From: a virus
Strand: one strand, 5' to 3'
DNA: 34,719 nucleotides
Virus record (IMG/VR): IMGVR_UViG_3300036892_000016
Span: 1 to 34,719 of that record
Shown here: piece by piece, positions 16,435 through 25,039 of the stretch
How positions within the stretch are numbered: position 1 is the first letter of the stretch
Layout: every line of letters begins with the position of its first letter
Notes under the pieces: model-generated
Told to the model about the DNA's origin: nothing
Database searches by the model: none
What the model saw: only the letters and a program-made list of their open reading frames with translations
Made by a program: the position numbers and the translations under genes

Positions 16435-17016
16435 TTATTCGGCTGGAACGGTTTCGGGAGTTTCGGGAAACCCGCCAACGGCATCGCCCGCCTCGTTGAC
16501 AAATATTTCCTCTTGTCCGATACCCAAACGCGCTTGCTGCGCTTTGTATGGATTGACGAAGGTGCGCTGCCCGGCAGCCGAGCGGATATTCCCACCCTTC
16601 TTGGCGAACAATCTGGCGTCCTCTTGCTTGAGAGAACTAATGACCTTTTGGCAGTTGGTACAGACGCCGATTACTTCACCCGTATCAAGAACATGGACTG
16701 CAAAGGATGAATCAGGCAACGCCCTAGCGCTGCTTTCGCTTGACCCCATTGTGTGCGGGCAAACATTGTCCTGAAAGTACGTGGTGCGTTTCTTTTCCTC
16801 GTTCTTGGCCGCAATCATTGACTTCCGCATCGCGGCGTCGTTGGCCTTCTGTTTAGGGTCTTCGTATGGGCGTTTGGAATCACGGATGGCATCCGCAAGA
16901 GCAACCGTGTTTTGTGACTGCGACGCTATTGCGGCTTTAACGGCCTCCGAAACAGCCGCGCTTACGATGCCTTGTAGTTCTGTGTAGCTAATTGATGTTC
17001 TTTCGTTTTCCGCCAT
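16435..17016 (-). CDS. Hypothetical protein with CxxC pair
   Basis: This 193-aa protein starts at ATG 17016 after AAAGGAG with 8-base spacing, inside the end of the endonuclease VII gene (55-base overlap in another frame). The N-terminal half is helical and charged, with a KKRTTYFQDNVCPHTMGSSE segment. Around residues 118-121 a VCTNCQ motif, together with the upstream VCPH, could form a zinc site. The C-terminus is acidic (NEAGDAVGGFPETPETVPAE). No family is recognised. Confidence 0.75.
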   Translation of the reverse strand: MAENERTSISYTELQGIVSAAVSEAVKAAIASQSQNTVALADAIRDSKRPYEDPKQKANDAAMRKSMIAAKNEEKKRTTYFQDNVCPHTMGSSESSARALPDSSFAVHVLDTGEVIGVCTNCQKVISSLKQEDARLFAKKGGNIRSAAGQRTFVNPYKAQQARLGIGQEEIFVNEAGDAVGGFPETPETVPAE

Positions 17017-17570
17017 TCACGTTCTCCTTTGACAATCCGGTCAAACGGTGATTTTTGTAGATACTCAATCAAACCCTGAAGACGATCAGTGTCGTCTTGG
17101 ACGAAGCCGAGCGCCAAATTACAGTTCGGACACAAAACGCCTCGAATTTTGTTTGTCTTGTGGCAGTGGTCAACATGCCAATCTCTTGGGCGACCTTCTC
17201 TGCCCTTCGATTGATAGCGTCCGGGATCGGTAGCGCCACATTTCCTGTTGGCGCATTTACCGCCCTGCTGCTTCAGCATTTCATCTCGTTCTTCAAGAGT
17301 AACGCCGAACTTCTTGACTAAACTTTGGTTGCGAACTTTATCGGGATTTTTCTTTGCCCAATTCTTTGCGTTTTGCCGAGCCGCTTCTTGGACATTCGGG
17401 CGAGTGTGACGGTATTCCCGGTTGTAGTCGCAATAACAAGACGTACACCAAGCTCGTCGTCCCGCAAGACCTTCCTGCTGTCCGCGTGGACCACTTCTTC
17501 GTATAAATTCAGACAGAGATTTGGCCTGACTACACTTCGTGCATACTTTTACTTCTTCTACTGTTTCCAT
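16962..17570 (-). CDS. Recombination endonuclease VII-like (HNH/His-Me finger) nuclease
   Basis: The ATG at 17570 is chosen because GGAGG lies 5 bases upstream; a TTG at 17582 is possible. The product has 202 aa. An N-terminal zinc site (VCTKC near residue 9, WCTSC near 42) is followed by a basic helical region. The endonuclease VII signature comes next: GGKCANRKCG, then WHVDHCHKTNKIRGVLCPNC and NLALGFVQDD. The family cleaves branched DNA in T4; in many phages it occurs as stand-alone, often mobile, nuclease genes. It is placed between glycosyltransferase-region genes, not with a replication module. The C-terminal 18 codons overlap the next gene. Confidence 0.88.
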   Translation of the reverse strand: METVEEVKVCTKCSQAKSLSEFIRRSGPRGQQEGLAGRRAWCTSCYCDYNREYRHTRPNVQEAARQNAKNWAKKNPDKVRNQSLVKKFGVTLEERDEMLKQQGGKCANRKCGATDPGRYQSKGREGRPRDWHVDHCHKTNKIRGVLCPNCNLALGFVQDDTDRLQGLIEYLQKSPFDRIVKGEREWRKTKEHQLATQNYKAS

Positions 17571-17608
17571 ATCTGCCTCCAACCGGGTCAGAATTTATAT
17601 TCTCTATT

Positions 17609-22354: not shown

Positions 22355-22762
22355 TCAGTTGCCTGAACTTTGTTTTTCCAGCCAGTCGGCGACGGCACGT
22401 ATTTCTTGCCAAGTCGCGTCCTGTTTAATCTTGTTTGCCCGAAAGGAAATTACGGCCACGTTTCCTTTGACATATCCGAGCGCTGGAATTATACGGTCGA
22501 TGCTTGGAGAATTGTCGTGAAACGGTTTGGAACCATGAATCAGAGGGATTCCAAGAACGGGGCAATGCGCAGGGATCACAATGTCTGATTTTTCTAGGTT
22601 GTACGGAATGTCATCACGGCGGCATCGTTGTCGGCACGCCGCAAGCAAATACGTGACGGGGTTTTTCTTGTAGTAATCCGCCTGTCTGATGCGGGCTTTT
22701 TCAAGATGGTTTTTACGCCAGTTTCGCTGCCAAGCGTTGTAGTTTTCTTTGTCTCTTGCCAT
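22355..22762 (-). CDS. Stand-alone HNH-type endonuclease
   Basis: This 135-aa protein is basic at the N-terminus (AWQRNWRKNHLEKARIRQAD). Its core reads CPVLGIPL, then PSIDRIIPALGYVKGNVAVI, then SFRANKIKQDATW. The S-x-D-R-I...GYV-x-GN-V-x-V-x-S-x-RAN-x-x-K pattern is common in small phage HNH/His-Me-finger nucleases. It lies directly downstream of the intron-split capsid gene and has its own promoter (22864-22893) and a good ribosome-binding site (GGGAGG). This is the arrangement expected of a free-standing homing endonuclease. Target site unknown. Confidence 0.8.
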   Translation of the reverse strand: MARDKENYNAWQRNWRKNHLEKARIRQADYYKKNPVTYLLAACRQRCRRDDIPYNLEKSDIVIPAHCPVLGIPLIHGSKPFHDNSPSIDRIIPALGYVKGNVAVISFRANKIKQDATWQEIRAVADWLEKQSSGN

Positions 22763-22914: not shown

Positions 22915-24563
22915 CTATGAACTGGAAGTCTCTGATTGCAAACGTCTTAACGTCATTGTACTTCCTGGCCTCAAAGTATTTGTGTATCTGCTTCTGTTAC
23001 AATGACTTACAAGCCATTGGGCAAATCATTTCTGTTTGCCTCATACGGTTTTTATTCCCGTATGCTCGGACTATTGCATCGCCCGAAGGCGTCTTCTCGC
23101 TTAGTCTCTCACGCTGGCTTATGCAGCCTTGCGCCTCGTTGCCATTGCAGGGTCCGAGTCAATCAGAGAAGATTTAGACAACGCCAGATTGTTAACGTTG
23201 TAAGAACACCAACCGCCGATCTGTCGTGCTGGATCAGATACAGAACCCTGTGCAGGTGCTTCTTGTATCATAAGCTTCGCGTTGTTACTCGCCTTACGGC
23301 GGGGCGGGTCATTTCTGCTCGCCTCATACGGTCGCCCGTATGTTCGGACTATCTCATCATCCACGAGGGATGCAACGTCTATAGTCTCTACACGTTCCCA
23401 ATGCGGGCTTCGCTCGGTGTTGTCTCGTAGAGGGTTTCACCGAATTAGCGTTGTTTTTCAATGTCGGTCGCCCGACAAAGCTACAAACTTTTATAGTTCT
23501 TCGATCCAGCTTCCGGGTTGGGGCCGAGGAATACGCTGAATATTGCGTCATCGGCAAAGATATAAGTGTTGTAATAAGTATTGCTACTTATCGTAACACT
23601 CGGTGCGGTCGTGGTCTGCCGGAACCTTACTCCCGCGAAGTCCACCACTTCGTCATTGGATAGCGGCTTGATAAGTTGCATGACGGTGGATTCGTTTCGC
23701 TTGAGGATGTCGGTCAGGCCGTTGTTCGACGTGTCGTTGTAAACCAAATTTGTTACTCACTCAATATGAGCGGGCAAACTCATTTCTGGTTTGCTCTGCA
23801 TATTCATTTCCATGCAGTTCAGACTATCGCATCACCCTTGCGGGCGTCCTCTCGCTTAGTCGTTCACGGTCCCCGAAGGGTTCCGCCTTGTTAGCGTCGC
23901 AGCTTCCAAGTCAATCAGAGAAGATTTTACCACGACAATACAACGTCTATCGTGGACAACGAATGGCAATTTGTTATCGTTGTTTATTCATCCACCCAAT
24001 ATTTAATGGATGATCCCACCCATCCGACCGTCTTTTTCAAGGGGTCGGGCGTTTACACCGTAGAGTTGCTGGACCGCAGTGCGAATATTGTTGGCGGTCA
24101 GGTAAGAACCGTTTGCCAACTGAATATTCACCGTTGCATCAACACCAGTGGCCGAATCAGCGGTCAACTGGACGAGGGTGTTCAGAGTCAGAGCCAAACG
24201 GTAGTTAAGTTCGACGCTGAGGTTCTGAAGCAGACTCGGGTCGTCAATGGCAACATCCATCGCCAAATCAGACGTGTTGATAAAGTCGGCATATTGGCCG
24301 ATTGTCGCAACGATCTTGGTGGTTGATTCCGTGATCGGGCTTCCAACCGTTCCTTCCGCAGCCTGGTTGGTGTTAGCCGCCAACAGCGCATACGTGAAGA
24401 ATTGGATTTGGTTGCCTGAACGAAGCGGAAGAGGTTTCTGCTTCGTCATTGCGAGGAAAGGAGTGTTTGCCTTCAGGTTGGGGATTGCCTCGCGCTCGTA
24501 ATAAATTGCTTGGAGGTTGGGCAATGAACCCGAAGTCAAAATGCTAGCCGGAGAATAAGCCAT
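22915..24563 (-). CDS. Major capsid protein, N4-gp56 type, split by three group I introns
   Basis: Inferred join (minus): 24563-24006, 23744-23493, 23277-23195, 22990-22915, giving 322 aa. Exon 1 (186 codons) begins MAYSPASILTSGSLPNLQAI and ends MGGIIH. Exon 2 (84 codons) runs VYNDTSNNGLTDILKR to PNPEAGSKNY. Exon 3 (27 codons plus 2 nt) starts KLMIQEAPAQGSVSDPARQI and ends GGWCSYN-V. Exon 4 (RYTNTLRPGSTMTLRRLQSE) ends at TAG 22915. The parts are in frame only when the introns are removed, and the joined protein reads as one capsid subunit. It would form the procapsid around the scaffold encoded upstream. Junction 1 may shift by one base (CAT|T versus CATT|, V or F) without changing the frame. 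A start at 24563 is supported by the leader and by the distance from the preceding gene. Confidence 0.88.
22991..23194 (-). ncRNA. Group I intron 3 of the capsid gene (204 nt)
   Basis: P1 pairs exon ACAACGT with intron GCGTTGT (T-G at the splice site). P10 pairs the 3' exon start CAGAT with ATCTG directly upstream of that guide, fixing the 3' splice site after G at 22991. P3 is TCTTCTC/GAGAAGA. P7 is GACTA (23106-23102) with TAGTC (within 23069-23074). P8 is the hairpin CGCC-TTCG-GGCG. There is no ORF of note inside, so it is a minimal intron. Its 5' half is nearly the same as in intron 1. Confidence 0.88.
23278..23492 (-). ncRNA. Group I intron 2 of the capsid gene (215 nt)
   Basis: P1 pairs exon CTAT with GTAG; the loop is AAAAGTTT. 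P10 pairs the 3' exon AAGCTT with AAGTTT next to the guide, fixing the ends at 23492 and 23278. The P4-P6 region (CGGTGAAACCCTCTACGAGA, then CAACACCG) closely follows the layout of the T4 td intron. P7 is GACTA (23386-23382) with ATAGTC (23052-type motif at 23347-23352). P3 is CAACG/CGTTG and P8 is CATCC-CTCG-TGGATG. Confidence 0.9.
23745..24005 (-). ncRNA. Group I intron 1 of the capsid gene (261 nt)
   Basis: P1 pairs exon TCATCCAT with GTGGATGA (8 bp, T-G at the splice site). P3 is TCTTCTC with GAGAGGA, P7 is GACTA (23861-23857) with ATAGTC (23822-23827), and P8 is CGCCC-GCAA-GGGTG. It ends in G at 23745. An extra stem near the 5' end (GTTGTCCACGATAGACGTTG, then TATTGTCGTGG) makes it the longest of the three. 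P10 is not clearly visible, so a one-base shift of both ends remains possible. Confidence 0.85.
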
Positions 24564-24859
24564 GCGTTTTGTGCCTCGTGGTTTTCTTTGTCACGTTGAG
24601 GCTGACAGTCCAACCGAAATGCTCGGTACGGGCAAATCTGCTCATCGACTGGCAACGACTTTCGTCCGTTGCCTGATGGGACTTAGGCTTTCGGGCAATG
24701 TGCCCACCACCTAACTCAAAAATCTAAAATTTTAATTGCGGGCAGCACGGTCGGGATAGCGTTTCAATCCCAGCGATTCTCACGCAGGTTCTTCCCCTGT
24801 AGCCTCGGATCAAGTCCGATTAATCCGCGCCTGTGACGAGTTCGGCCCGCAAACCTTTT
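24564..24859 (-). other. Structured leader upstream of the capsid gene (no protein gene)
   Basis: A 296-base gene-free stretch with many inverted repeats. A long-range stem TTGCGGGC/GCCCGCAA (24736-24743 with 24845-24852) encloses several hairpins, such as TCGGA-CTTGA-TCCGA and GGGAT...ATCCC. Nearer the start codon are GGCAAC...GTTGCC (24651-24673, minus-strand loop region GACGAAAGTC) and a compound stem TTAGG...GGGCA-CAT-TGCCC...CCTAA (24683-24714). A hairpin CCGA-GCAT-TTCGG is also present. It lacks the group I P7 motif. It could be a regulatory leader, a processed RNA or an unknown ribozyme; no known family was matched. Confidence 0.6.
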
Positions 24860-25039
24860 CTACTGCAAACCAAGTTTCAGTTTCTTGCTATTTTTACGCG
24901 GGCGCTTCTTTCCTTTTTTGAACTGCGCCTTGCGATACCTTACGGATGGCGGGTATTTCTTCATTACTCTTTCGCGATGTGCTTTTCTCTCCGTCGCCTT
25001 GCGGAGTTTGGTCGCGAGTCTTTGTTCGGGCGTACGCAT
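24860..25039 (-). CDS. Small very basic protein
   Basis: This 59-aa protein starts MRTPEQRLATKLRKATERKA and continues through HRERVMKKYPPSVRYRKAQF to a Lys/Arg-rich tail. About 24 of 59 residues are basic. The strongest ribosome-binding site of the window, AGGAGG, lies 7-9 bases before the ATG. Position between scaffold and capsid genes suggests a nucleic-acid-binding or capsid-assembly role, which is inference. It is too short for usual ORF cut-offs. Confidence 0.72.
   Translation of the reverse strand: MRTPEQRLATKLRKATERKAHRERVMKKYPPSVRYRKAQFKKGKKRPRKNSKKLKLGLQ

Follow-up and report, generated by a model that had tools for sequence, protein, structure and literature searches.

The major capsid gene of the phage studied here probably carries three self-splicing group I introns together with a 39-nt insert that lacks a catalytic core and that would be spliced by the core of its neighbour. 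The window, meaning the whole stretch of 34,719 nt that was analysed (IMG/VR record IMGVR_UViG_3300036892_000016), comes from a soil phage and holds the gene on its minus strand (24563-22915), where the reading frame is interrupted by stops.

The gene was dissected using a DP spliced aligner written here, which sets a profile of uninterrupted capsids against DNA, allows introns in any phase and gives a small bonus for a T before an insert and a G at the insert end. Aligned with about 25 uninterrupted homologues, the window gene displays four inserts of 39, 204, 215 and 204 nt. Removal of all four gives a protein of 328 aa, free of gaps against the homologue profile, with the following anatomy (R1 is the covariance model described below).

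24006..24563, minus strand: capsid exon 1, codons 1-186, ending ...IIH (ORF; uninterrupted homologues; phrog_1357 major head protein)
23967..24005, minus strand: 39-nt core-less mini-insert at codon 186/187, after H186 (DP spliced alignment)
23949..23966, minus strand: 18-nt micro-exon, PFVVHD, codons 187-192 (conserved homologue residues)
23745..23948, minus strand: ORF-less group I intron, 204 nt, after D192 (DP alignment; covariance model)
23493..23744, minus strand: capsid exon, codons 193-276 (DP alignment)
23278..23492, minus strand: ORF-less group I intron, 215 nt (RF00028, 51.5 bits; R1, 73.3 bits)
23195..23277, minus strand: capsid exon, codons 277-304, phase 2 (DP alignment)
22991..23194, minus strand: ORF-less group I intron, 204 nt, P10 CAGAT/ATCTG (DP alignment; R1, 202.8 bits)
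22915..22990, minus strand: final capsid exon and stop codon (homologues; DP alignment)

A sequence-only reading of this DNA had described a broken capsid frame and three group I cores on the minus strand, both of which we also see, and it had placed the second and third introns (215 and 204 nt) correctly, as the homologues carry the C-terminus that it gave, SYNVRYTNTLRPGSTMTLRRLQSETSSS. The same C-terminus of its 322-aa product rules out a third intron of 203 nt, which would keep another frame open (345 aa). Its first intron, of 261 nt with the junction IIH|VYNDTS, was wrong, being in fact two separate inserts that flank an 18-nt coding micro-exon. At this position the uninterrupted homologues read IIHPFVVHDVLNDTS, and the window DNA CCATTCGTTGTCCACGAT, encoding PFVVHD, falls inside the supposed intron; the 322-aa version thus drops six conserved residues. 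Hence part of the claimed intron 1 is coding in homologues, whereas introns 2 and 3 withstand that comparison. The micro-exon differs from that of a related locus, L035, by about three synonymous differences and one amino-acid change. All 16 homologues matched TIGR04387 (N4-gp56 capsid; best E 7.7e-15), the first member reaching 53 bits where the cut-off is 60, and by this similarity the window capsid protein appears N4-gp56-like.

Judged by their predicted structure, the 204-, 215- and 204-nt inserts belong to the group I introns. When the two 204-nt introns are aligned with 22 relatives, the alignment displays P1, P3, P4, P5, P6, P7, P8 and two P9-type helices, with 96.7% of cells paired versus 72.2% in shuffles, and with compensatory double changes in 41 of 50 pairs, including the P7 pseudoknot (P3/P7). 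The covariance model R1, built from this alignment, scored the window introns, in gene order, at 181.6, 73.3 and 202.8 bits; both 204-nt introns are training members, and the 73.3 bits of the 215-nt intron are independent of the training set. In total R1 found 98 matches in 32 sequences. The Rfam group I model (RF00028) agrees in part, with a match at 23503-23325 (51.5 bits; gathering score 50), a weak one at 24015-23801 (20.1 bits) and none to the third window intron (23194-22991); it also matches introns of relatives. P1 of the 204-nt intron at 23948-23745 is CCACGAT/GTCGTGG and is followed by a P3-P9 core, in which P7 is GACTA/TAGTC. The pairing previously proposed as P1 of intron 1, CATCCAT/GTGGATG, is real, but forms part of the 39-nt insert and not of the 204-nt ribozyme. 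A T precedes and a G ends all three full window introns, and among 149 full introns of the family a T precedes 149, with a terminal G in 139 and a wobble G in 131; such T/G counts at insert ends are partly favoured by construction because of the aligner bonus, which leaves the pairing statistics unaffected. Structure, covariation, frame restoration and intron-free homologues all bear out that one phage capsid gene contains three group I introns, none with an ORF, and from their structure the three are predicted to splice themselves out.

The capsid gene of the window phage is a hot spot for group I introns. A first scan of viral contigs gave 74 loci related to it; after further scans the set comprised 81 distinct genes, 72 of them full-length, and about 25 full-length genes are uninterrupted (327-330 aa). 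Full introns number 184 and range from none (25 genes) to ten per gene (L186, L187), at 44 called sites, an approximate figure as a few neighbours may be one site. The highest count, ten full introns of 167-766 nt in one capsid gene, lies at 2712-6559 of L186/L187. Within twelve whole contigs (16-109 kb) the hits of R1 and Rfam are concentrated around the capsid locus; neither model gave a group I match in two phages that are free of introns. Even capsid genes that are close relatives, with coding-sequence identities of 97.5% and 92.5%, do not have all their introns in common; L072 and L074 form the 97.5% pair, yet an intron occupies site 249 in L072 only. ORFs lie in introns of 600-1310 nt, most of them with motifs resembling LAGLIDADG; those that were scanned matched LAGLIDADG families of Pfam, and one ORF, in L035, is HNH-like. 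The family is thus a record of intron invasion in one gene, for which the roughly 25 intron-free full-length relatives supply the empty sites.

Some calls of the aligner were discounted and put down to the alignment or to plain insertions: very long inserts close to codon 320 of L099 and L104 (2,265 and 3,331 nt), 27 nt added in frame at codon 152 of L150 and L218, and a 20-nt insert of L143 that was driven by a gap. The last intron of L123 (= L174) is probably mis-bounded, because the DP path there leaves a stop in frame at about codon 294-302. L021 (1-2044) is an intron-free contig of 2,044 nt whose nearest relatives hold 6-9 inserts; should its sample be a metatranscriptome, it may be a transcript that has been spliced.

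Hosts of the window phage's relatives appear to be Acidobacteriota, as suggested by two capsid homologues, one in a MAG contig of Candidatus Sulfotelmatobacter, the other in an Acidobacteria MAG contig; the isolate Tunturiibacter phage Tunturi_3 (PP885686) has an intact capsid gene at 40% identity. Just 3' of the window capsid gene lies one further feature.

22355..22762, minus strand: free-standing HNH-type endonuclease (phrog_3322, E 1.3e-32)

This ORF shares 40% identity over 105 aa with the HNH within intron 232.1 of L035 and is a possible mobility factor. A similar HNH-type ORF occupies the same position after the capsid gene of L021, which suggests that the free-standing endonuclease may serve the ORF-less introns. 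Elsewhere in the window, a non-coding leader of about 317 nt (24564-24880) stands 5' of the capsid gene and folds strongly (-109 kcal/mol for 346 nt), with no Rfam match and no similarity to related loci, and 16962-17582 encodes a recombination endonuclease VII-like protein (PF02945, E 6e-20). In related phage loci, a permuted tmRNA (RF04321, 77.4 bits) was found 3' of the capsid gene at L001 5262-5505, and a CyVA-1 RNA match at L064 6035-6112 scored 39.6, just under the gathering score of 41.4.

The 39-nt insert of the window begins with an in-frame stop and possesses a P1 with U.G, a P10 and a terminal G. Pairing analysis located its helices as follows.

24006..24013, minus strand: 5' strand of P1, exon TCATCCAT, with U.G at the 5' splice site
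23988..23995, minus strand: internal guide GTGGATGA, 3' strand of P1
23998-23996, minus strand: P10 segment TGG, in the P1 loop and next to the guide, pairing with exon CCA
23977..23983, minus strand: 5' strand of Px, ACAACGA
23956..23962, minus strand: 3' strand of Px, TCGTTGT, within the micro-exon

The P10 is only 3 bp long; P1 and P10 together gave p=0.001, and Px p=0.042. The MFE fold consists of two neat hairpins, P1 and Px (z=-2.63), with the 3' splice site sitting in the Px loop, so that P10 would be a contact between two loops. The catalytic core (P3-P8) is absent from the insert, which has no room for it and contains no model match. For want of a core we do not class the insert as a group I intron, and propose it to be a non-autonomous derivative.

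Such inserts recur across the family. The capsid genes contain 24 short inserts (32-59 nt) and none of 60-159 nt, above which the full introns begin, giving a bimodal distribution; the short inserts occupy codons 29, 32, 40, 92, 186, 269, 298 and 311. All 21 mini-inserts examined have a U at their 5' site, form a U.G pair within P1 and end in G (the T and G at the ends again being subject to the aligner bonus). In P1 the last ~7 exon bases pair with a guide inside the insert, and in P10 the bases adjoining the guide pair with the start of the 3' exon. Compared with shuffled inserts, P1 and P10 gave a combined p of 2e-27, and a third helix, Px, in which the insert tail pairs with the 3' exon just past P10, a combined p of 6e-11; these and the other p-values for the family overstate independence because the loci, all metagenomic, are related by descent. 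Px was sought in the 149 full introns and was not seen (p about 1). At site 298.1 the true pairing of exon and insert ranks top of 720 permutations, and the exon codons vary synonymously there; a swap test at site 298.0, on three sequences only, revealed no own-exon preference. Over the 21 mini-inserts the folding z-score averages just -1.2, with members at site 298 often adopting another fold. Exact spliced junctions were searched for twice in viral contigs and none were found.

Scattered short matches are suggestive of an origin of the mini-inserts by core deletion from full introns: a 10-nt match to the neighbour was significant in L044 alone (p=0.01), and in the window the mini-insert and the neighbouring intron share 9 nt at their 3' ends. 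As separate observations, mini-inserts that occupy different sites have AGCAGCATAATTA in common (L035 at 186, L022 at 298) or AGCAGCAT (L064); in full introns, AAGCAGC is seen in the 5' part in 14 of 363 records, whose loci overlap. L143 has, at codons 264-267, a 14-nt insert, GGT|AAAGAATAATATTG|AAG, which includes a stop codon and has T and G at its ends; its AAGAATA pairs with exon TATTCTT, and it is too short for P1 plus P10. It may possibly be an error or an extreme derivative.

Metagenomic contigs as the only source, and the in-frame stop within the insert, are what would be expected of assembly errors or of a pseudogene with a junk insertion. We regard this as highly improbable, however. 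Identical mini-inserts occur in different samples (L124, L125), which makes an artefact unlikely, and pairs of mini-insert carriers give whole-gene pN/pS values of about 0.06-0.17. Moreover, nearly all loci have full open frames once the inserts are removed, and the pairing statistics given above also speak against junk.

The codons of the micro-exon after site 298 show a pN/pS of 0.064, consistent with purifying selection, which implies that the micro-exon is translated and that the insert must be removed or bypassed. This bears on exon skipping, in which the downstream ribozyme would use the P1 at 24006 and splice to 23745, so that PFVVHD is lost and the 39 nt lie within a 261-nt intron. A P1 does exist at the first site, group I exon skipping is known from phage Twort (title of Landthaler & Shub 1999, cited in PMC11878797), and exon skipping has been engineered in tandem introns (PMC10136302). 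Nevertheless, PFVVHD is conserved in intron-free homologues and its counterpart at site 298 is under the selection just described, and the mini-inserts come with a P10 and terminal G of their own and with a Px matched to the micro-exon; exon skipping is therefore considered unlikely.

Alternatively, ribosomes could hop over the insert, as in T4 gene 60 or the mitochondrial byps. The T4 gene 60 bypass gap is about 50 nt, the mini-inserts are similar in size and form hairpins, and in the window a stop codon directly follows the take-off codon. Set against this, the take-off and landing codons differ at sites 32, 40, 92, 186 and 298.0, and a hop at 298.1 drops W299, invariant in a 16-sequence alignment, which splicing restores. 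Bypassing also gives no reason for the U.G pair and terminal G of all 21 mini-inserts, and we consider it very unlikely.

Splicing of the mini-insert by the neighbouring core is proposed because no mini-insert stands alone or last, none occurs in an intron-free gene, the downstream intron is close, and one whole contig offers a single candidate. Wherever enough sequence follows a mini-insert, the distance to the next full intron downstream is 16-182 nt (18 nt for the 39-nt insert of the window), shorter than under random placement (p 1e-5, 19 mini-inserts). Across 20 genes a mini-insert was never alone and never the last insert, with a chance of about 0.002 under random order, kinship ignored; none was found in any of the 25 intron-free genes. 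In contig G007 (94.9 kb), R1 and Rfam each find one group I match, and this is the intron downstream of the mini-insert. Some introns neighbouring mini-inserts are weak Rfam or R1 matches (e.g. site 90.1).

Removal could also proceed without the neighbour, through a tiny ribozyme of the insert itself, an unlinked ribozyme, or a protein endonuclease and ligase acting on two hairpins. The compact two-hairpin fold with splice sites in or near loops would suit this, and no base-pairing between mini-insert and neighbour core was established; on the other hand, both insert ends have the group I signature and a mini-insert was never seen lacking a downstream full intron. Such removal is a minor possibility. 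An intron of the HAC1/XBP1 type, with hairpin loops of consensus CNG|CNGN, was rejected, as a T precedes the 5' site in 21 of 21 mini-inserts. The P1/Px fold also appears unlike a bulge-helix-bulge intron, with its 4-bp helix between two 3-nt bulges.

In the neighbour-core mechanism that we favour, the mini-insert would supply what a group I intron needs as substrate (P1, P10, terminal G) and not the part that acts as enzyme. The Px hairpin, formed by insert tail and 3' exon, would hold the 3' splice site in its loop, and P10, as a loop-loop contact, would draw both splice sites together. The core of the downstream intron would then dock the P1 of the mini-insert and splice it out, after which the neighbour would remove itself. 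For the 39-nt insert of the window we infer splicing in this manner. The wider proposition, that natural non-autonomous group I introns of 32-59 nt (P1, P10, 3'-exon hairpin, terminal G) are spliced by a neighbour core in the same transcript, seems to us slightly favoured by the balance of evidence. If true, one ribozyme core serves two introns, and a shared core is a step often imagined from self-splicing introns toward shared splicing machinery. With the terms used, no natural core-less group I intron, and no natural group I core serving two introns, was found in the open-licence papers that were searched.

The orf142 of phage Twort is a structural gene. Three introns are reported in it (Landthaler & Shub 1999, cited in PMC11878797); single group I introns lie in the capsid genes of LittleE and Tuc2009 (PMC3706429). 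Some phage structural-gene group I introns have homing endonucleases and some do not (PMC3706429; PMC11878797). In contrast to Twort, LittleE and Tuc2009, one capsid family here has up to ten introns per gene at about 44 sites, with mostly LAGLIDADG endonucleases rather than GIY-YIG or HNH, and core-less mini-inserts in addition. The mini-inserts resemble T4 gene 60 and the mitochondrial byps as short, hairpin-forming inserts of similar length in a coding frame, but differ in having no matching codons and in having group I splice-site pairing. The group III introns of Euglena chloroplasts are shrunken descendants of self-splicing introns that depend on outside catalysis, as the mini-inserts would, although they derive from group II and measure about 100 nt. 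Degenerate group I introns in lichen rDNA (average about 233 nt) have lost self-splicing parts and are still removed, and are said to fold still much like the original (PMC8527467); these keep most of their structure, whereas the mini-inserts have lost the whole core. In an engineered group I spliceozyme, a core excises an internal core-less intron of 64-100 nt via P1 and a 3'-site helix (PMC4094466). The likeness lies in a core-less intron removed through P1 and a 3'-site helix, a removal that we infer for the mini-inserts; the spliceozyme is engineered, acts in trans and has designed pairing to the ribozyme, whereas the inserts described here are natural, 32-59 nt long and cis-adjacent, with P1 and Px pairing to the exons.
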